DNA of 64,000 nucleotides from Alphaproteobacteria bacterium (GTDB lineage Bacteria > Pseudomonadota > Alphaproteobacteria > DSM-16000 > Inquilinaceae), in the NCBI GenBank assembly GCA_028284045.1, contig JANQSN010000033.1, positions 1-64,000 of the forward strand, given 5' to 3'. This document shows positions 5,855-28,321 of the stretch, in pieces. The position numbers were made by a program, and so were the translations under genes. How positions within the stretch are numbered: position 1 is the first letter of the stretch; each line of letters begins with the position of its first letter. Below the pieces are notes generated by a model, which saw only the letters and a program-made list of their open reading frames with translations, did not search any database and had not been told where the DNA came from.

Positions 5855-6688
5855 TCAAGCGCCGTCTTGCTGCTGCTTACGCCGGGCGAGGAGAGACAGA
5901 ATCTCCGCGGCGGTTTCTTCGATCGCGCGGTGGCTGACATCGATCACCGGCCAGCCATGGCGGAGGTAGAACCGCCGCGCCTCCCGGACCTCACCGCGGA
6001 CGACGTCGGGGTCGAAATAGGTCGTCGACTGAGAGCTTTGCAACGTCTGCATGCGGTTGCGGCGGATTTCCACGAGCTGGTCGGGATCCTTGGTCAGCCC
6101 GACGATCAACGGCCGCTTCAGATTGGCCAGCTCCGGCGCGATCGGCACACCGGGCACGAAGGGCACATTGGCAGCCTTGATACCGCGATTGGCTAGATAG
6201 AGGCAGGTCGGTGTCTTGGAGGTGCGGGAGACGCCGACCAGGATCACCTCCGCCCGATGCAGGTTGACCGTTGCTTGGCCGTCATCGTGGTTGAGCGCGA
6301 ACTCCATCGCTTCGACACGGTTGAAATAGGCCGCATTCATCGCGTGCTGCGATCCCGGCCGGCTGGTGCTGGCCATGCCGAGAAAGCTGCTCATCATGCC
6401 GATGATCGGCTCCAGCACGGAGGTGTGGGGCACGCCCAGCTCGAAGCAGGTGGTGACCAGGCGACGGCGCAGCTTCTCGTCCACCAGGGTATAGATCACG
6501 CAGCCGCGATAGCGCTCGATCTCCTCCAGCACCAGGTCCAGCTGGGCGTCGCTGCGCACCAGGTTCCAGAAATGCTCCACCGGCTCGACGCCCTCGAACT
6601 GGGCAAGGCAGGCCCGCGCAACGCTGTGGATCGTCTCGCCGGTGGCATCCGACACGAGATGGAGATGGAAGTACTTGGTCGCGCTCAT
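5855..6688 (-). CDS. ppsR: PEP synthase regulatory protein (bifunctional kinase/phosphorylase, DUF299)
   Basis: Members of this family phosphorylate a threonine of phosphoenolpyruvate synthase or pyruvate phosphate dikinase with ADP, and reverse it with phosphate. The 277 residues begin with HLHLVSDATGETIHSVARA and contain the P-loop-like VGVSRTSKTPT near residues 153-163, both hallmarks. It corresponds to the RP001-type gene that flanks the replication origin opposite hemE in alphaproteobacteria. It is the first gene of the leftward cluster. Confidence 0.93.
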   Translation of the reverse strand: MSATKYFHLHLVSDATGETIHSVARACLAQFEGVEPVEHFWNLVRSDAQLDLVLEEIERYRGCVIYTLVDEKLRRRLVTTCFELGVPHTSVLEPIIGMMSSFLGMASTSRPGSQHAMNAAYFNRVEAMEFALNHDDGQATVNLHRAEVILVGVSRTSKTPTCLYLANRGIKAANVPFVPGVPIAPELANLKRPLIVGLTKDPDQLVEIRRNRMQTLQSSQSTTYFDPDVVRGEVREARRFYLRHGWPVIDVSHRAIEETAAEILSLLARRKQQQDGA

Positions 6689-7300
6689 CGGCTTCAGCGT
6701 CCAACCGGCCTGTCTAAGGCCGGCGTTTCAGGGGGGAGACAGAGGCCAGCACCGATCCCTGGACGATCGCTGCCGCCCAACAGGAGCAGCAAGCGCGGTA
6801 AGGGGCGGATGAATTGGGGATAAGGCAGCAGATCGGGACCCGGACCGCCAAACCATCCCCGATCTGGCCGAAACCGTCCAGCCGCTTATCCCCGTCGCAG
6901 AGCCAACCACGCCCTCCACCCGTTCCGGCGTGTTGTTCGGCGGCAATCCGCCGGCTTATCCCACCGATCATCCCCATGGGGCCGACGACGTCAAAGCTGG
7001 CGTAGCATTCTGAAATGGCAGCCTTTTGATACCGCACCGACCGACACGAGAGGGCGACCGGCGGCGGTCGGCTGGACAGTGGTGCAACAGCAATGGCATG
7101 ACACCGGGGATAACCTGAGAATTCCCGCCATCCGGTCGCCCCAACAAATCCCATCAAAAAAACAAAGATTCTTTGTTTTGAAGGGAGAACCACAAGGACA
7201 TCGGCGCCGTCCGTGCCAGCGATCCTGAGAGCGATCCTGGATGGACAACCGTGCGACGCAGGGGGAGCGGGATCACCCGAGACGATGGACCCGAGAGACC
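6689..7300. other. Probable chromosomal replication origin (oriC) between ppsR and hemE
   Basis: This 612-bp gene-free stretch lies between divergent ppsR and hemE, the known origin position in Caulobacter and relatives. It carries four sequences close to the DnaA box TTATCCACA: TTATCCCCA (minus, 6815-6823), TTATCCCCG (plus, 6886-6894), TTATCCCAC (plus, 6956-6964) and TTATCCCCG (minus, 7105-7113). A weaker TCATCCCCA is at 6968-6976. It ends in an A/T-rich block (about 7143-7180) that could be the unwinding element. Long open frames across it look spurious. The call combines synteny with motif reading; origin activity is inferred. Confidence 0.72.
7159..7179. repeat. AT-rich palindrome in the putative origin
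   Basis: Two perfect 10-base arms, AAAACAAAGA and its complement TCTTTGTTTT, surround a single T. The centre forms GATTC, a GANTC site of the CcrM methyltransferase class. It is the most AT-rich spot in the origin-like gap and lies about 120 bp before hemE. It could be part of the unwinding region or an operator of hemE. Confidence 0.6.
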
Positions 7301-8332
7301 ATGACCGACCGCCGGTTCCTGCGTGTGCTCGCAGGCGAACGCCTCGATCCACCGCCGATCTGGCTGATGCGCCAGGCAGGCCGTTACCTGCCGGAGTATC
7401 GGCATACCCGGGCACAGGCGAATGGTTTTCTGGACCTCTGTTACACGCCGGCTCTGGCGCGCGAGGTCACCTTGCAGCCGATCCGGCGCTATGCCTTCGA
7501 CGCCGCCATCCTGTTCTCCGACATCCTGGTGCTGCCGCATGCGCTGGGCCAGGCGGTCTGGTTCGTCGAGGGAGAAGGCCCACGGCTGGAGCCGATCCGG
7601 GACGAAGCGGGCCTGTTGGCCCTGAAACCGGGCGAGAGTGGCGGTAGCCTCGCGCCGGTGCTGGAGACGGTTGCCGATCTCAGGGCGACACTGCCCCACG
7701 AGGTCGCGCTGATCGGCTTTGCCGGCGCGCCTTGGACCGTGGCGTGCTATATGGTGGCCGGCGGCGGGTCGAAAGACTTCGTCGCTGTGCGCACGCTCGC
7801 AGCCTCCGAGCCGGACTTCTTCCGCGCGTTGATCGACCTGCTGGTCGAGGAGACCATTGGCTACCTGGCGGCCCAGGTGGAGGCCGGCGCGGATGCGCTG
7901 CAGCTGTTCGATAGCTGGGCGGGATCGCTGGCGGAGGACGGATTCGATGACTGGGTCATCCGGCCGACGCGGCGGATCGTAGAGGGTTTGCGAACCCGCG
8001 GCGTGGATGTTCCCATCATCGGGTTTCCGCGGGGTGGCGCGGCACTGCTGGAGCGGTTCATCGTCGAGACCGGCGTAGATGCGGTGTCGGGCGATGTGGC
8101 CTGTCCGCTATCCGCCTTGGCGGCGGTTCAGCCACGCGTTGCGGTTCAGGGCAATCTGGACCCAGCGGTGGTGGTCGCCGGCGGCACGCGGCTGGATGCC
8201 GCGGTGGATCGGATCGTTGGCGGGCTGCGGGACGGTCCCCATGTGTTCAACTTGGGGCATGGTGTCGTACCGCAGACGCCGCCGGATCATGTGGCGCGGC
8301 TGGTGGACCGGGTGCGCAATACGAGTGCATGA
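7301..8332 (+). CDS. hemE: Uroporphyrinogen decarboxylase
   Basis: HemE decarboxylates the four acetate side chains of uroporphyrinogen III to give coproporphyrinogen III. The 343 residues from the ATG at 7301 open with MTDRRFLRVL and then PIWLMRQAGRYLPEYR, the conserved active-site loop. They continue with LFSDILVLPHALG (catalytic Asp), FAGAPWTVACYM and a C-terminal FNLGHGVVPQTPP. An upstream in-frame ATG at 7241 would add 20 residues without family similarity. It leads the hemE-hemH-hemJ-rho series. Confidence 0.95.
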   Translation: MTDRRFLRVLAGERLDPPPIWLMRQAGRYLPEYRHTRAQANGFLDLCYTPALAREVTLQPIRRYAFDAAILFSDILVLPHALGQAVWFVEGEGPRLEPIRDEAGLLALKPGESGGSLAPVLETVADLRATLPHEVALIGFAGAPWTVACYMVAGGGSKDFVAVRTLAASEPDFFRALIDLLVEETIGYLAAQVEAGADALQLFDSWAGSLAEDGFDDWVIRPTRRIVEGLRTRGVDVPIIGFPRGGAALLERFIVETGVDAVSGDVACPLSALAAVQPRVAVQGNLDPAVVVAGGTRLDAAVDRIVGGLRDGPHVFNLGHGVVPQTPPDHVARLVDRVRNTSA

Positions 8333-17414: not shown

Positions 17415-17430
17415 CGTTTCACGTGAAACA
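17415..17430. promoter_or_regulatory. parS centromere site 1
   Basis: CGTTTCACGTGAAACA matches the conserved bacterial parS TGTTTCACGTGAAACA at 15 of 16 positions, with an intact 14-bp palindrome GTTTCACGTGAAAC. It lies just after mnmE, 3.6 kb from parB. ParB is expected to load here and spread. Confidence 0.9.
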
Positions 17431-19540: not shown

Positions 19541-20186
19541 GGACCTTGACGCCATCGCGCAGGATGCCGGCTTGGGTGTTTCACGTGAAACGAGGGACCG
19601 GCTGCAGGCCTATGCCGACCTGTTGAAACGCTGGCAACGGCGCATCAACCTGGTCGGACGCGACAGCGTGCCCGGCCTGTGGCACCGCCATATCCGCGAT
19701 TCGGCCCAGCTTCTCCCCCTGCTGCCCGACGGCGCCCGCACCCTGGTCGATCTCGGTAGTGGCGCGGGATTCCCGGGCCTCATCCTCGCCATTCTCGGCG
19801 TGCCCGAGGTTCGCCTGATCGAGAGCGATCAGCGCAAGGCCGCCTTTCTGGCCGAGGCCGCCCGCGTGACCGGTGTCCGGGTCACGATCGAGACCCGACG
19901 GATCGAAGACGTGCCGGCCTGCGCCGCCGATATCGTGACCGCCCGGGCGCTCGCCCCGCTGGACCGATTGCTGCCGCTGGTCCGGCGCTTCGTCCGTCCG
20001 GACAGTGTCGTCCTCCTGCTGAAGGGTCAAGATGTAGATCGGGAATTGACCGAAGCTACTAAAAGCGGGATTATCGACAGGAACTGGCAGCCGGAGCGAC
20101 TGCCCAGCCGGACGGATCCGGCCGCCGTCATCCTGCGTTTCGGAGGACATTGCCTTGGCCCTGCCGACCCTGCGCCCGGCCGATGA
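19524..20186 (+). CDS. rsmG: 16S rRNA (guanine-N7) methyltransferase RsmG
   Basis: RsmG (GidB) methylates G527 of 16S rRNA (E. coli numbering); loss gives low-level streptomycin resistance. The 220 residues contain the SAM-binding [11 protein letters not shown] near residues 74-84, and [12 protein letters not shown] before it. The N-terminal GVSRET codons contain a parS site. The gene overlaps the mnmG end by 17 bp and the parA start by about 30 bp, so translation of the run is probably coupled. Confidence 0.93.
19577..19592. promoter_or_regulatory. parS centromere site 2, inside rsmG
   Basis: TGTTTCACGTGAAACG matches consensus parS at 15 of 16 positions and shares the 14-bp palindrome of the 17415 site. 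It is read in frame as VSRET in RsmG. A parS site embedded in gidB/rsmG is a recurring arrangement. The two sites are 2.2 kb apart and lie within 3.6 kb of parAB. Confidence 0.9.
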
Positions 20187-21012
20187 GGCCGCCGACGGTC
20201 CTGGACAGGCCCGCGGGCCCGCCCGGTGCGTTGCCGATCGGGTGATCGCCATCGCCAATCAGAAGGGTGGGGTGGGCAAGACCACAACGGCGATCAACCT
20301 CGGCACCGCCTTGGCCGCCATCGGGCGGCGGGTCCTCATCATCGATCTCGATGCCCAGGGCAACGCCAGCACCGGCCTCGGCATCGATCGGGGTGCCCGG
20401 GGGACCGGAACCTATGGACTGCTCTTCGGCGACACCTCGGTCGCCGAGGCCGCCCGCGCCACCGAGATCCCCAACCTCTGGGTCGTTCCCTCCACCGCCG
20501 ATCTTTCCGGCGCGGAAGTCGAACTCGTTTCGGCCGCCGGCCGCGAGTTCCGCCTGAAGAGCGCGCTCGGCGAACCGATCGCCGAGGCCTATGACTATGT
20601 CCTCATCGACTGCCCGCCGGCGCTCGGTCTCCTGACGCTGAACGCGATGGTCGCCGCCGACCGCGTCCTCGTGCCGCTGCAATGCGAGTTCTACGCCCTG
20701 GAAGGCTTGAGCTTTCTGATGCGGACCATCGAGCGTGTCCGCAAGGGCCTGAACCCCGATCTCGACATCGACGGCATCGTGCTGACCATGTTCGACAAGC
20801 GTAACAAGCTGTCGGAGATGGTGGCCTGCGACGTCCGCCAGCATCTCGGCGACAAGGTCTTTCAGACCGTGATCCCGCGCAATGTCCGCATCTCCGAAGC
20901 GCCGTCGCACGGCAAGCCGGTTCTGCTCTACGACCTGCAATGCGCCGGGTCGCGGGCCTATGTTCATCTCGCCGGCGAGGTTCTGCGCCGCGAAGCGCGG
21001 GCGGCCGCCTGA
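20155..21012 (+). CDS. parA: Chromosome-partitioning ATPase ParA
   Basis: ParA is the Walker-type ATPase that, with ParB-parS, moves newly copied origins. After a 28-residue tail the 285-residue product has the deviant Walker A KGGVGKTTT, the DLDAQGNAS motif (Walker A') and VLIDCPPALG (Walker B). The TTG at 20155 is the likely start, because GGAGG lies 8 nt upstream and no ATG is available before the ATPase core. A GTG at the core itself is the alternative. Its stop overlaps the parB start as TGATG. Confidence 0.95.
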   Translation: MALPTLRPADEAADGPGQARGPARCVADRVIAIANQKGGVGKTTTAINLGTALAAIGRRVLIIDLDAQGNASTGLGIDRGARGTGTYGLLFGDTSVAEAARATEIPNLWVVPSTADLSGAEVELVSAAGREFRLKSALGEPIAEAYDYVLIDCPPALGLLTLNAMVAADRVLVPLQCEFYALEGLSFLMRTIERVRKGLNPDLDIDGIVLTMFDKRNKLSEMVACDVRQHLGDKVFQTVIPRNVRISEAPSHGKPVLLYDLQCAGSRAYVHLAGEVLRREARAAA

Positions 21013-22037
21013 TGACCGACCCCGGTGCCCGGCGCCGGCCGCAGCTCGGCCGCGGCCTCAGCGCGCTGTTCGGCGACGCCGACCCGGCGGCGGCGGAAGC
21101 AGTCGCGACCGAAGGCGTGCGCTCGGTTCCCATCGAGGCCATCTTCGCCAATCCCGCCCAGCCGCGGCGCCGATTCGCCGATGTCGAACTGGCGGAGCTG
21201 GCGCGGTCGATCCGCGAACGCGGCATCGTCCAACCGCTGCTGGTGCGTCCCCGCCCGACCGGGGTCGACGGCGCGTATGAGATCGTCGCCGGGGAGCGGC
21301 GATGGCGCGCCGCCCAGCAGGTCCAACTGCACGAGGTTCCGGTCGTCGTTCGCGCACTCGACGACGCGCAATCGCTGCAGCTCTCGATCATCGAGAATGT
21401 TCAGCGGCAGGATCTGTCGTGCCTGGAGGAGGCCGCCGCCTACCGTCGCCTGGTCTCCGAGTTCGGCCATACCCAGGAGGAAATCGCCGGCATCGTCGGC
21501 AAGAGCCGCAGCCATGTCGCCAACAGCCTGCGCCTGCTGAACCTGCCGGCGGCGGTCCAACAGTTCCTGGAGGACGGCCGCCTGTCCGCCGGCCATGGCC
21601 GGGCACTGCTCAGCGTCGACGACCCGGCCGCCCTCGCGGTGGAGGTGGTCCGCCGTGGGCTGAGCGTCCGCCAGACGGAGGCGCTCGCCCAGCAGCAGCG
21701 CGATCGGCACGTAGCCCCGACGCCGGTGGCCGATCCCCCGACGGTGCGCCCCGTCGCGAAGGCCCGCGAAGACCGGGCCGGCACGTCGGGACCCGCCGAC
21801 AGCCGCGATCCCTTCGATCACCCGACACCGCCGGGTCAGGAGGATCCGTTCCGCCGGCCGCTCGCCCAAGAAGATGCCACCGCCCTCCAGCGCAGTCTTT
21901 CCGAGGAGCTTGGCATGAGGGTGCGCATCGATATGCGCGCCGCAGCGGCGGGTTCTCTGTCGATCGACTTTCGGTCGCTGGAGCAGCTGGACGTCCTGCT
22001 TGCCAGGCTGAGCCCGCCGATCCCGTTCTCCGGGTAG
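21012..22037 (+). CDS. parB: Chromosome-partitioning protein ParB (CTPase clamp)
   Basis: ParB binds parS, closes as a CTP-dependent clamp and spreads. The 341 residues start with GRGLSALFG (the ParA-contact region), then IFANPAQPRRRF. The CTP-site GERRWRAAQQ and the helix-turn-helix around HTQEEIAGIVGKSRSHVANSLRLLNLP follow. A Pro-rich linker (about 240-290) leads to a C-terminal dimerisation domain. The start ATG overlaps the parA stop by one base. The gene converges with holA, 58 bp away. Confidence 0.95.
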   Translation: MTDPGARRRPQLGRGLSALFGDADPAAAEAVATEGVRSVPIEAIFANPAQPRRRFADVELAELARSIRERGIVQPLLVRPRPTGVDGAYEIVAGERRWRAAQQVQLHEVPVVVRALDDAQSLQLSIIENVQRQDLSCLEEAAAYRRLVSEFGHTQEEIAGIVGKSRSHVANSLRLLNLPAAVQQFLEDGRLSAGHGRALLSVDDPAALAVEVVRRGLSVRQTEALAQQQRDRHVAPTPVADPPTVRPVAKAREDRAGTSGPADSRDPFDHPTPPGQEDPFRRPLAQEDATALQRSLSEELGMRVRIDMRAAAAGSLSIDFRSLEQLDVLLARLSPPIPFSG

Positions 22038-22095
22038 AGCCGATTCGTTTAGCGGCTGCCCGCCAGATCGCTTTGGGGGTCGCGCACGTCGTCCG

Positions 22096-23148
22096 CTATC
22101 GCGGCCTCGATGGCCGGATCCGGCCAGCCGCCTCGCGCGACAACGTCAACAGCTCCTGGCGCAGCACGATCTCCGCTGGGATCCCGGTCTGCTTGCAGGC
22201 GAGTTCCAGCGCGAACAGCCGATCCAAGGCGGCCTGGCAGGCGGCGCGCGGCCAGGATCCTTGCAGCCGTCGGAAAGCCGGCTGTTGCTTGAAGAAGATC
22301 CGAAGCCGGGCGAGGATCGCCTGCTCGGTATGGCCCGCCGCCGCCAGCAACGACGCCATGCGCAGGCGATCGACATGCCGCTGCACGGCGCGAACGATAC
22401 GCACCGGCGCGACCCCGTCGGCGGCCAGGCGTCGGCAGGCCCTGTCGACCACGGCGACGGCCCCTTCGGTCACCGCAATCGCCAGGGCGTCCAGCGAGGC
22501 TTGCGCACCGTCGCCGAGACAGTCGCTCACGTCCTCCGCCGTGAGCTGCCGTCGGTCGCCGACGAAGCAGACGAGCTTTTCCAGCTCTCCGCGCATCACC
22601 GCATGGTCCGCGCCCAACCGATCGGCCAGCGCAACCAGGACGTCCCGATCGGCGCGTACGCCGGCGGCGTCGAGATGGCGGCGAATCTCCTCGATCAGCG
22701 CGCCGCCTTCCGCCGGGTAGCAGGCGATCGCCACGGCCGCCGGCGCCGCCTCGCACAGTCGGCGCAGCGCCGAGCGCGGCGGCAGATCCGCCGGTCCCTC
22801 CAGGACAATCAAATTGGCGGCCAAGGTGCTGCCGGCCGCCTGGTCCAGGCAGGTCTCGACGGCGGCCGTGACCGCATCGGCGGCGTCGCGGACCCGGATC
22901 GCGCGCCGCCCGCCGACCAGGCTGCCCGCCGCGGCTTCATCCACCAGCCGTGCCGGATCGCCGGAGATGTCACCGGCCTCCAGCGTCGCCGCCCGGAAGG
23001 GATCGTCCGCCGACCCGGCGATCGTCGTCATCAAGCCGCGGCACCGCTCGCGAACCAGCCCGCGATCGGGTCCATAAACCAGCGCCACGGCGATATCGTC
23101 CGGCGGACGGCGCAGGAAGCCGTCGACGCGCGCCGGCGCCAACTTCAC
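22096..23148 (-). CDS. holA: DNA polymerase III delta subunit
   Basis: HolA is the clamp-loader subunit that opens the beta clamp. The 350-residue product shows the family pattern: VALVYGPDRGLVRERC near residues 21-36 (the degenerate nucleotide-binding loop), LGADHAVMRGELEKL (the AAA+ lid region), and a C-terminal helical collar domain with RRLQGSWPRAACQAALDRLF. Position between parB and lptE fits the alphaproteobacterial order. The ATG at 23148 gives a natural MKLAPARVDGFLRRPP start. Confidence 0.92.
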   Translation of the reverse strand: MKLAPARVDGFLRRPPDDIAVALVYGPDRGLVRERCRGLMTTIAGSADDPFRAATLEAGDISGDPARLVDEAAAGSLVGGRRAIRVRDAADAVTAAVETCLDQAAGSTLAANLIVLEGPADLPPRSALRRLCEAAPAAVAIACYPAEGGALIEEIRRHLDAAGVRADRDVLVALADRLGADHAVMRGELEKLVCFVGDRRQLTAEDVSDCLGDGAQASLDALAIAVTEGAVAVVDRACRRLAADGVAPVRIVRAVQRHVDRLRMASLLAAAGHTEQAILARLRIFFKQQPAFRRLQGSWPRAACQAALDRLFALELACKQTGIPAEIVLRQELLTLSREAAGRIRPSRPR

Positions 23149-23287
23149 CGGCGTGCGCCCGGCCTGTCTTCCGGCGCCTGGCCTCTCGCGCGCCCGGCGC
23201 CGGTTTCCGCGTCGGCGCCACGACCAACCAAGCCGAAACGCCCGCCGTCCCGCCAGCCGGTCCTATTGTCGGCCGGTCGTTCAGACC

Positions 23288-23851
23288 TCATCCGACATCC
23301 TCCGCCCGCGTCTGGAAGTAGAGCGCCAGTTCGCGGCGAATCTGCTCGCTGATGTCCCGGAGCGACCGCTCCCGCGCGCTGTCGACGCTGACCTCGCTGC
23401 CGAAGAGGTCGTCCTGGATGTTGTAGCTGGCGGTCGCGCGATGCCTGCGCTCCAGCACGACCTCGCTGCTTGCCAGCTCGATCAGTCTGGCCTTGGCGGT
23501 GACCACGAGCCGTGCGCGCGTCACCGTGCCGTCGTCGACGGTCGCCAGCGACCCTTCCGACTCGTCGAGATCCACCGTCAGCCGATGGGTCGGCTCGGCC
23601 GGCCGCCCGCCCGGATTGAGCCGCTCCAGCAGGAGGTTGCGGAGCTGCTGTCCCGGGCGATCGGCAACCACCGCGACTCGGACGGCCGCAAGGTCGTCGG
23701 CCACCACCCGGCCACCCTCGCTGACCTCTCCATAGAGTGGCTGGAACCCGCAGCCCGCCAAGGCCGCAGCCGTGCCGGCCGCGACCAGGAGGCGTCGCCG
23801 CAGGATCGGCGAAGAGGCGTCGCTCAACCCTTGAGGATGTCTTCGATGCAT
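23288..23851 (-). CDS. lptE: LPS-assembly lipoprotein LptE
   Basis: LptE is the outer-membrane lipoprotein plug of the LptD translocon that places lipopolysaccharide at the cell surface. The 187-residue product from ATG 23851 has a signal peptide with the lipobox LAGCGFQPLYG; GFQPLYG is characteristic of LptE. A GGGGGG-containing purine stretch lies upstream of this ATG. A GTG 10 codons earlier (23881) is possible. It sits between leuS and holA, the usual alphaproteobacterial place. Confidence 0.9.
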   Translation of the reverse strand: MHRRHPQGLSDASSPILRRRLLVAAGTAAALAGCGFQPLYGEVSEGGRVVADDLAAVRVAVVADRPGQQLRNLLLERLNPGGRPAEPTHRLTVDLDESEGSLATVDDGTVTRARLVVTAKARLIELASSEVVLERRHRATASYNIQDDLFGSEVSVDSARERSLRDISEQIRRELALYFQTRAEDVG

Positions 23852-24028
23852 GATGGTGACCCCCCGGGGCTGTGTTCCCACGCGGTCTGGACGTCTTCGC
23901 TTGATGCTCGGCCGCCCGGCCCTCCACGGCAGTATCCTGGAACAGGGGGCCGGGTTGGAGCCGATTCGGGAAAGGGCGTACAGCGCCTTAGGTCGGCGCG
24001 GGGAATTGAACGGGCCGGTAGGAGGCCC

Positions 24029-26773
24029 TCAAACCACGACATTGACGATCCGATTCGGCACGACCACCACTTTGCGGACCGGTCGGTCCCCGACCGCTCG
24101 GCGCACCGCCACATCGGCCAGTGCTTGATCCTCCGCCGTTTCGCGTGCGGCGTCGCGAGGCAGCGCGATGGTGGCGCGCAGCTTGCCGTTGACCTGCACG
24201 GCGACGGTGACGGTGTCGTCCTGCAGCAATGCAGGGTCCGCCGTCGGCCAGGGGGTTTCGCTCAGCGGCGCCGTGCCGCCCAGTCGCTCCCACAGCTCCT
24301 CCGCCAGATGCGGCACCACCGGTCCCAAGAGCTGCACGATGGCCGCCAAGGCCTCGCGGCGCGCGGCGCCGAGACCGGCGCCGGCGTCGCCGGACGCCTG
24401 GGCGTCGGTCAGCATATTGGTCAACTCGCGGATCCGGGCGACCGCGCGGTTCAACCGGAACCCGTCGAGGTCCTCGCCGACCCCGGCGATGGTGCGATGG
24501 GTCGCGCGCCGTAGCGCCAAGGCTGCGGGGGCCGACGCCTCGGTCCCAGCCCCGTCGCCGGGCGGCTCCTCGGCGACCAGCCGCCACAGCCGGTTGAGGT
24601 AGCGCCACGCCCCCTCGATACCGCTTTCCGTCCAGTCGAGGTCACGCTCCGGCGGGCTGTCCGACAGCAGCAGCAGCCGCGCGGTATCGGCGCCGTAGGT
24701 CTCCACCACCCGCTCCAGCCCGACCACGTTCTTGCGCGACTTGCTCATCTTCTCCGCGCGGCCGACGGTCACCGGGGTGCCGTCGCTCGCCCGCCGGGCG
24801 CCGCCGCCGGCCGCCCCGTCCAGCGTTATCTCCTCCGGAAACAGCCAGGCGCCGTCGGCCGCCTGATAGGTCTCGTGGCACACCATCCCCTGGGTCATCA
24901 ATCCGGCGAAGGGCTCTGCCAGGTCGGCGTAGCCGCAGTCGGTCAGCGCCCGCATGAAGAAGCGCGAATAGAGCAGGTGCAGGACCGCGTGTTCGATGCC
25001 GCCGATATACTGGTCGACCGGCAGCCAGTAGTCGACATCGCCCCGCCGGAACGCCGTGTCCGCGTCGGGCGAGCAGAACCGCGCGAAGTACCACGAGCTT
25101 TCGAAGAAGGTGTCGAAGGTGTCGGTCTCCCGGATCGCCGCCGTCCCGCATTTGGGGCAGGCGACATGCTTCCAGGTCGGGTGGTGATCCAGCGGGTTGC
25201 CGGCCACCGACAGATCGACGTCACGCGGCAGCTCGACCGGCAGATCGGACTCCGGCACGGGGACGATCCCGCAGTTGGGGCAATGGATCACCGGGATGGG
25301 GCAGCCCCAATAGCGTTGCCGCGACACCCCCCAGTCGCGCAGGCGAAAGGCGATCCGGGCCTCCCCGAGGTCGCGGCCCTCCAGCGCCGTGATGGCGGCC
25401 CGCTTCGCTTCCGCCACCGTCAGCGGCGTCGGCACCGCCAAGTCCGGTACGCCCAGGCAGGCCAGGTCATAGGCGAACCGGCGCCCGTCGGCGCCGATGA
25501 AGGCGGTGGCGCCGACATGGAACAGGCGCCGACCGTCGATCTCCGCGATGCCGGCGCCGTCTTCGAACCGCGCGCGGTCCTCGGGTGCCAGCGCGGCGAC
25601 GGCATCGTCGTCGACCGGCGTCGCGTCGGCCGGCCACAGGGCCGGGCGCACCGCCAGATCGTACTTCCGGGCGAAATCCAGGTCGCGCTGGTCATGCGCC
25701 GGGCAGCCGAAGACGGCGCCGGTGCCGTAGCCCATCAGCACGAAGTTCGCGACATAGACGGGCAGAAGCCGATCCGCCTCGAACGGATGGCGCACGGCCA
25801 GCGCGGTGCGGTAACCCCGTTTCTCCGCCTTCTCCAACGCCGCTTCGCTGGTGCCGAGGCGGCGGCATTCGCCGGCGAAGGCGGCCAGCGCGGGGTCGTC
25901 CTCGGCCAGGCTTAGGCTCACCGGATGGTCTGGCGACAGGGCGAGGAAGCTGGCGCCGGCAATCGTGTCCGGACGGGTCGTGAAGACCTCGATGGCCTCG
26001 GGCAGGCCTGCGCGCAGGGCGTCCGGCAGCGGTGTGCGCGCATCGCCGTCCGGTGCCGCTCGGCCGGCCAGCGCAAACCGCATCAGCGCGCCCTCCGACC
26101 GGCCGATCCAGTTCTGCTGCATCAGCCGGACGCGGTCGGGCCAGCGGTCCAGCGTCTCCAATGCCTCCAGCAGGCTGTCGGCATAGCGCGTGATGGCGAG
26201 GAACCATTGCGGCAGCCGCCGTTGCTCGACCAATGCGCCGGACCGCCAGCCCCGTCCGTCGATCACCTGCTCGTTGGCCAGGACGGTGTGCTCGACCGGA
26301 TCCCAGTTGACCACCGACTCCTTCCGGTAGGCGAGGCCCGCCTCCAGGAAGTCCAGAAACATCTTCTGCTCGTGGCGGTAGTAATCCGGCGTGCAGGTGG
26401 CGATCTCCCGGTCCCAGTCGTAGCTGAGGCCGATCAGCCGAAGCTGCTCGCCCATCACCCGGATGTTCTCGAAGGTCCAGTCGGCCGGGTGCACGCCGCC
26501 GGCGAGCGCGGCATTCTCCGCCGGCAGCCCAAAGGCATCCCATCCCATGGGATGCAGGACGTTGAAACCCTGGGCCCGCTTGTACCGGGCGATGACGTCG
26601 CCGATGGCGTAGTTGCGGACATGCCCGACATGCAGCCGCCCCGACGGATAGGGAAACATCTCCAGCACGTAGTATTTCGGCCGCCCGGGATCGATCCGCG
26701 CGTGGAAGGTGCCGCGCTCGGCCCACCGCGCCTGCCACTTCGCCTCGATCTCGCGGAAGCTGTACCGCGCCAT
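24029..26773 (-). CDS. leuS: Leucyl-tRNA synthetase
   Basis: LeuS charges tRNA-Leu and edits misactivated residues. The 914-residue length is normal for the class Ia enzyme. The HIGH-type motif is [15 protein letters not shown] near residues 42-56. A large CP1 editing insertion includes [20 protein letters not shown] and [11 protein letters not shown]. The zinc-type CPNCG and CPKCG segments follow, and [11 protein letters not shown] is the class I lysine loop. The C-terminal [11 protein letters not shown] is typical. The start ATG 26773 is clear. Confidence 0.97.
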
Positions 26774-27093
26774 GGTGTCTCTCCGCCCGCCGGATCGTCG
26801 GACCCCGCGATTCCGGCGCCGGCGCTTGCCGTCAGCCGCCGACGCAGACCGTCGTGTCGCCCGAGAAGCGGTGCCGGGCCGTCGCGAGGATCGCAGGAAC
26901 GCTCTGCCAGGCAGGTCGAGCGCCGGTGTCGGCGGGGCGCGCCGACCGGGTCCGGCAATGCTCTAGGCCGACCGACCCTGCCGATCAATACCCGTCTCGG
27001 GTCCGTTGCCGTCTCGGGCCGCCTGCCGTGTCGGGTCGCTTGCCGTGTCGGGTCGATGGCAGGCCGACGATGATGGCCGCCTGCCCGCCGTCC
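26774..27093. other. Intergenic gap between leuS and the DUF3576 gene
   Basis: This 320-bp stretch has no supportable gene. It contains a 17-bp tandem array (26994-27060) and the 10-mer AATGCTCTAG at 26957-26966, which also occurs at the edge of the palindromic element near 12607. Both flanking genes are leftward, so it would carry any promoter of leuS. Confidence 0.5.
26994..27060. repeat. Four-copy 17-bp tandem repeat
   Basis: Copies at 26994-27010, 27011-27027, 27028-27044 and 27045-27060 follow the pattern GTCTCGGGTCCGTTGCC. Changes occur mainly at positions 3 and 9-14, and the last copy is one base short. The copies diverge moderately, so this is an old or selected array between DUF3576 and leuS. 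Confidence 0.8.
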
Positions 27094-27720
27094 CTATTGT
27101 GAGGCCGCCAGCACCCGCAGTTCGCGCGCCCGGGCCAGAATGGCGTCCTCCAGCGCGCGCACCGCGCCCGGCTCCACCGCGCCGTCCATCCACTGGCCGG
27201 CATCGTCGCGGATCTGGCGGAACAAGGCGACGCGGATCCCGTCGGAACGCAGCTCCCGCCCGAGAATGAAGACATTCGCCTTGAACCGTTCCGTCGGGCT
27301 GCCGGAGGGCGACCACCAGTCGGTGATGATCACCCCGCCGAACGGGTCGGGCGTTCCGTCGAGCGGCATGAAGGCGACGGTGTCCAGCGAGGCGCGCCAC
27401 AGGAAGCTGTTGACCCCGATCCCGCCGCCATCCAGCGCCGCCGCATCCCGGTCGCTGTCGCCGCCGAGCAGGCTGATGCCGCCATCGCCGCCGAAGACGC
27501 TGCTGTCGGGTGCATTGCGGCTTGCCCGGCTTCCGACATCGTCGGGTTCGTCCAACACCGGTTCGGCGTTGCCGCACGCTGCCAGCGCGCACATCACGAT
27601 TCCGGACACAAGACCGCGCCGCCACGCCCGGGCGTTCCATGATCCGGCGGACCACCCACGATCCCGATCCGATCGCGTCACGCCCGTCGTCCTGCGCCGA
27701 TGAAGGAGAGCTTGTCTCAT
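27094..27720 (-). CDS. DUF3576 lipoprotein
   Basis: The product, up to 208 residues, has a hydrophobic segment ending in the lipobox LAAC (Cys about residue 49). The conserved DUF3576 core follows: GVNSFLWRASLDTVAFMPL, DPFGGVIITDWW and ERFKANVFILGREL. The family is alphaproteobacterial and found next to leuS-lptE; a role in the outer envelope is inferred from the lipobox and context. The ATG at 27720 gives an unusually long region before the signal core, so the GTG at 27681 may be the true start. Confidence 0.85.
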   Translation of the reverse strand: MRQALLHRRRTTGVTRSDRDRGWSAGSWNARAWRRGLVSGIVMCALAACGNAEPVLDEPDDVGSRASRNAPDSSVFGGDGGISLLGGDSDRDAAALDGGGIGVNSFLWRASLDTVAFMPLDGTPDPFGGVIITDWWSPSGSPTERFKANVFILGRELRSDGIRVALFRQIRDDAGQWMDGAVEPGAVRALEDAILARARELRVLAASQ

Positions 27721-28321
27721 CTGCCGACCTGTCTGTTCCCTCGCACCGATCGATCCGGCCCAACGGTCTCGACCCGTGGAGAAGGATCGCCTTCAAGAAG
27801 GCCCTCCCAAGAAGGTCCTTCAAGTGTGCGGCCTTCGGGCAGACGCGGGGACGCGACCATCCGCGGGTCCGGCGCCCCAATGCCACGCGCCCCTATGCCG
27901 GCACCACTATGCCAGCCCCACTATGGTTGTCCGGCACTGCCCGATGCAAACCCGGCGTTCGCAGAAGCCATGGCGTCGCACCGGACGTGCGGATCATGCC
28001 GCGGCGATCCCGCCGACCGGTGCGGTTTGCGTGAGGGCCTTAGCTTTGGGCGCCAGTCTATTGGCTTCCCGCGCGGTTGGCCAATGCTCCGGTGATCCGG
28101 CGGGGCTGCGCCGGCGGGCCGTCGGCCGGTGTGTTGCCGAGAGGCAACATCCGTGGCAGGAATGCCCTCACATCCGGCGCATGGTGTTGACCGGCCGTGG
28201 GTTTCGGCTCACTAAGGCTTGGTAACCTTTCCGGTATCCAGCGGGTCAACCGTTTGGAACGGCGCAAAGGTCCGACCGGTAAATCTGGGGAACAGCGGTC
28301 CTTATGTCAGGAGATACAATC
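27721..28321. other. Divergent regulatory gap before the porin gene
   Basis: No convincing gene is seen in these 600 bp, although several weak frames cross it. It separates the leftward DUF3576 gene from the rightward porin and should carry both promoters. Small inverted repeats occur: GCCTTC-AA-GAAGGC (27789-27802), GAAGG-T-CCTTC (27811-27821), and ATTGGC/GCCAAT at 28060-28085. TTGACC at 28187-28192 is a possible porin -35 with a poor -10. The porin ribosome-binding site AGGAG is at 28309-28313. Confidence 0.5.

Follow-up and report, generated by a model that had tools for sequence, protein, structure and literature searches.

The chromosomal origins of Caulobacter and Rickettsia sit between hemE and COG1806 (PMC1914354), and the Caulobacter W-box, with the consensus TCCCCA, is a weak DnaA site (PMC4285127). 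In Bacillus subtilis and others, a basal unwinding system (BUS) has been described that combines tandem DnaA boxes with DnaA-trios (PMC8287927, PMC6669920). For Escherichia coli DnaA, the base-contacting residues are R399, P423, D433, H434, T435 and H439 (PMC7561715). The DNA analysed here (the window) comprises the first 64 kb of a contig of 73.6 kb, from a 4.32-Mb genome in 63 contigs, and its intergenic region at 6689-7300 is very probably the chromosomal oriC of this alphaproteobacterium of the Inquilinus family. The same inference, made in a preliminary description of the window, is supported by synteny, by the proximity of parS and parAB, by a GC-skew flip at the orthologous gap of a relative, and by a class-conserved core that lies at the right place and on the right strand.

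The gap is 612 bp long and, as described earlier, separates two divergent genes, ppsR (COG1806/DUF299, RP001-type; 5855-6688, minus strand; PF03618, E=8.8e-92) and hemE (7301-8332, plus strand; PF01208, E=2.6e-113). It thus falls between hemE and COG1806/RP001, and the general location given in the preliminary description for alphaproteobacterial origins agrees with that reported for Caulobacter and Rickettsia (PMC1914354). Of the first 50 loci examined, 48 had a ppsR-hemE gap, and 113 distinct alphaproteobacterial gap sequences, typically of about 400-500 bp, were extracted in all; the closest relatives by ppsR are MAGs and Inquilinus limosus. A typical alphaproteobacterial ppsR-hemE origin is also carried by a sequence titled as an Anaerolineae MAG (L102, JANQQD010000042.1), the label or bin of which looks wrong, given 9% contamination in its genome, G012. 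To the right of hemE follow ferrochelatase, hemJ, rho, mnmE, mnmG, parA and parB, the last two being origin-proximal chromosome partition genes (20155-22037, plus strand; AAA_31, E=5e-62; ParB_N and HTH_ParB, E=5e-34). The gene mnmG is flanked by two parS sites, each with a single mismatch: one precedes it (17415-17430, plus strand; 0.02 chance matches expected in the window) and the other falls within the first part of the rsmG reading frame (19577-19592, plus strand). The distance from the gap to parS and parAB is 10-15 kb.

GC skew was followed for 200 kb on each side of the orthologous gap in a relative of the same family (G008), where it averages about -0.019 across the hemE flank and +0.021 across the ppsR flank; of ten 20-kb blocks per flank, nine are negative towards hemE and nine positive towards ppsR, with the flip at the gap itself. 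The step at the gap of Inquilinus limosus (G013) is much weaker. On the contig under study the skew is -0.018 to the left of the gap and +0.089 over the next 12.7 kb, agreeing in sign with G008 in a comparison that is one-sided, the left arm reaching the contig end after 6.7 kb. Starting about 13 kb from the origin, the skew is negative for about 8 kb (20001-28000), contrary to the expected leading-strand sign.

The four TTATCCC nonamers listed in the preliminary description were all recovered, namely TTATCCCCA at 6815-6823 (minus strand), TTATCCCCG at 6886-6894 (plus) and again at 7105-7113 (minus), and TTATCCCAC at 6956-6964 (plus). Two weaker C-type boxes, absent from that list, can be added: CCATCCCCG at 6853-6861 (plus) and, 12 bp after the 6956 box, TCATCCCCA at 6968-6976 (plus). 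Chance would supply 0.04 copies of TTATCCC in the gap (mononucleotide shuffling) and 1.8 in the whole window (dinucleotide shuffling); the genome holds 54 copies in 4.32 Mb, and the four in the gap lie within 300 bp. Similarly, three of the 18 genomic copies of TTATCCCC are in the gap. This nonamer was also considered as a genome-wide regulatory box and rejected as such, all 14 copies on other contigs being within mechanical ORFs, with no regulon pattern seen. In relatives, TTATCCCAC recurs in L013 at the position aligned with the 6956 box, where the alignment is weak, and a nonamer identical to the 7105 box is aligned with it in L003, other relatives having either an A-type or a C-type box there.

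Every TTATCC box of the gap is of the C type, with C at position 7, and TTATCCACA is absent; [AT]TCCCC occurs five times and [AT]TCCAC not at all, and TTATCCAC, which has ten copies in the genome, is found nowhere within 6689-7300. The cluster of DnaA-box-like sites exceeds chance and is of C type only. The preliminary description took this as a local shift of the DnaA box to TTATCCCC. The composition on which that claim was built holds, but the C type is not local. Across the 113 gaps, TTATCCCC was seen 82 times against 1.7 expected and TTATCCAC 67 times against 0.9 (mononucleotide shuffles), and 17 gaps besides that of the window have no [AT]TCCAC. In addition, the W-box TCCCCA is equivalent to the 3' six bases of TTATCCCCA (PMC4285127) and occurs in the window's gap at 6815 (minus strand) and 6968 (plus strand). 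No description of TTATCCCC as a DnaA box was found in the literature searched. Judged from sequence, C-type boxes form a regular second kind of DnaA site in the origins of Alphaproteobacteria rather than a private shift, and they correspond to the Caulobacter W-box with TTA added at its 5' end.

An altered specificity of the DnaA of this lineage, in which a protein preferring TTATCCCC would have led to the loss of A-type boxes, is improbable, even if it fits the five [AT]TCCCC and the lack of [AT]TCCAC in the gap. The genome encodes one DnaA, and domain IV (G000 contig C37:31294-31500, L062) reads GERFDKRDHTTV where relatives have GRKFGGRDHTTV. The DK that directly precedes the RDHTT recognition motif is unique among 87 DnaA proteins, 77 of which have GG. 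Nevertheless, the residues that contact bases in E. coli DnaA (PMC7561715) are all retained, and C-type boxes are equally common class-wide. Moreover, A-type boxes are also missing in 17 of the 77 genomes with GG, and no association between the DnaA change and the boxes was detected among the 87 genomes with both DnaA and gap (Fisher p=0.69), so a recognition-helix change was rejected as the cause of the C-type boxes. The box-reading residues offer no evidence of change, and the window's C-type boxes are better regarded as part of the class repertoire.

An alignment of the gap in relatives, proposed as a check in the preliminary description, showed a conserved block adjoining an AT-rich stretch in same-family gaps. 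A core profile of about 85 bp was built from 86 other alphaproteobacterial ppsR-hemE gaps, the genome under study being excluded, and found a single match in the 64-kb window, at 7104-7187 on the plus strand (E=1.1e-4; next E=8.6), which agrees with the expected site, strand and spacing to hemE. With the whole family left out, the window still matched at E=2.2e-4. The profile matched 95 of the 113 gaps, all on the same strand, and gave no match in shuffled gaps; in 737 kb from two relatives it found only their two orthologous gaps, and a Caulobacteraceae MAG (L180) gave a weak match (E=6e-4). The window, its left-out family and the relatives' contigs are the independent tests here. Box frequencies describe the class and are not independent tests, because the gaps that supplied the profiles and motif counts are also those on which they were read, and sequences that share descent do not count independently.

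Within the class core the order is a minus-strand TTATCCACA-type box, a minus-strand TTATCCCCA-type box, a plus-strand TAATCCCCG, a plus-strand TTATCCACA, a period-3 tract and an AT-rich element. At position 7 (n=86), box 2 has C in 48 and A in 24, box 3 has C in 75 (87%) and A in 7, and box 4 has A in 67 (78%) and C in 13; with such strong preferences at boxes 3 and 4, the two types act class-wide as partners, each with its own positions. The possibility that TTATCCC is the site of another protein, one regulating the origin or hemE/ppsR, is very unlikely. Two proteins would be expected to favour different core positions, as A-type and C-type sites do, but TTATCC is common to both types, homologous core positions carry either of them (box 1 is A-type in 39 gaps and C-type in 34), and Caulobacter DnaA itself binds TCCCCA, albeit weakly (PMC4285127). 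The notion that the gap is a mere divergent promoter region with chance or promoter sites, the active origin lying elsewhere, fits the divergence of hemE and ppsR and the degenerate core of the window but is scarcely credible given a motif density far above chance, a core found class-wide, the skew flip at the relative's orthologous gap and the synteny with the known Caulobacter origin (Cori).

In the window, the putative unwinding core at 7104-7187 comprises the 7105 box, the remnant of a tandem pair, GAATTCCCG and CCATCCGGT at 7119-7136 (plus strand) in place of the TAATCCCCG and TTATCCACA of the class, a weak period-3 tract at 7139-7157 (plus strand; CCC CAA CAA and so on), which is the counterpart of the trio-like tract of relatives, and the AT-rich element. 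It is degenerate, with few consensus bases in the tandem pair and a short trio-like tract, the longest C run of which is 3 against a class mean of 4.9. The tract would be homologous to the class core, a reading that rests on the profile. A strict class-wide pattern, TAATCCCCNTTATCCACAG with two mismatches, was found in 59 of 385 genomes and was not used as evidence because its margin over a reversed-pattern control was only moderate and many matches lay outside the gap.

GC content is 62% over the entire gap, whereas the kilobases of the window are mostly 64-78%, and AT content is thus raised at this locus. The AT-rich block said to follow the boxes was located at 7153-7182 (80% AT), where it constitutes a putative unwinding element. 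Most of it is spanned by a perfect palindrome, AAAACAAAGA-T-TCTTTGTTTT (10+1+10; 7159-7179), centred on GATTC, a GANTC site, at 7167-7171. Of 94 relatives, 48 also have a GANTC in the corresponding stretch, against 16.8 expected, which hints at methylation-linked control by a CcrM-type enzyme. With counts per gap taken as both-strand counts halved, the Inquilinus-type gaps (L006, L007 and L009-L012) have 8-10 GANTC within about 404 bp, and the window's origin has one.

The arrangement suggests how initiation could proceed. DnaA would load on the C-type TTATCCC[C] boxes between 6815 and 6976 and on the 7105 box, and from there it would spread via the adjacent tract into the palindromic AT-rich element at 7153-7182. 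Melting of the strands at this element would then permit helicase loading, and two forks would depart, one toward ppsR and the other toward hemE. With its tandem pair and tract eroded, this origin may rely more on its distal boxes.

Assignment of the gap as oriC locates the origin in a lineage that has been little studied and lacks a closed genome, and the class-wide counts imply that origin finders using TTATCCACA alone miss half of the alphaproteobacterial box repertoire. The class core also provides a concrete DNA fragment for testing the generality of the published DnaA-trio rule, and it makes a sharp prediction, namely a C-type upstream box and GNT triplets without a fixed middle base.

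Compared with the BUS of Bacillus subtilis and others, the alphaproteobacterial core has a similar layout of head-to-tail TAATCCCCG-TTATCCACA, a period-3 tract and an AT-rich element. The tract itself differs. In the core of 94 relatives' gaps, a C-N-A tract of period 3 separates the final DnaA box from the AT-rich element, and three consecutive CNA triplets were found in 45 of the 94 gaps against 2.6 in shuffles. Three trios by the published rule, 3'-NAN-5', were no commoner than chance, being present in 15 of the 94 gaps where shuffling gave 15.3. The class tract therefore reads 3'-GNT-5', keeping C and A on the top strand and lacking the conserved middle A. In the window both tandem boxes are eroded. 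The BUS calls for a DnaA box that differs from TTATCCACA at no more than two positions and lies, in the same direction, no further than 16 bp from the trios; GAATTCCCG and CCATCCGGT have five mismatches each, the well-matched 7105 box points the opposite way, and, where at least three trios would be expected, the top strand of the tract has no three in-phase NTN. The chances are about even that alphaproteobacterial origins share one unwinding core, with outer A-type and inner C-type boxes in near-dyad and a dedicated box of the C type, TAATCCCCG, immediately upstream of one of the A type, followed by single-strand 3'-GNT-5' triplets in which no middle A is conserved; such a core would be a BUS variant with its own trio rule, and the window's origin an eroded member.

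Cori of Caulobacter crescentus, the hemE-COG1806 origin, shares with the window its flanking genes and the combination of DnaA boxes and an AT-rich region (PMC1914354, PMC4285127), but differs in having TGATCCACA G-boxes and CtrA sites of the form TTAA-N7-TTAA. The window's gap has no G-box of this kind and not one TTAA; CtrA sites are also missing from 15 of 17 same-family gaps, and are thus not general to the family. The IHF site WATCAANNNNTTR is likewise absent from the gap and from all 17 same-family gaps. These absences, the degenerate core and the weak skew step in Inquilinus limosus are the points that weigh against the oriC reading. Unlike those of Cori, the boxes of the window keep the full 5' TTA. 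Classical TTATCCACA origins of the E. coli type differ from the window in the base at position 7, which in every one of its TTATCC boxes is C, and share with it the TTATCC core, the clustering of boxes on both strands and the AT-rich element alongside.
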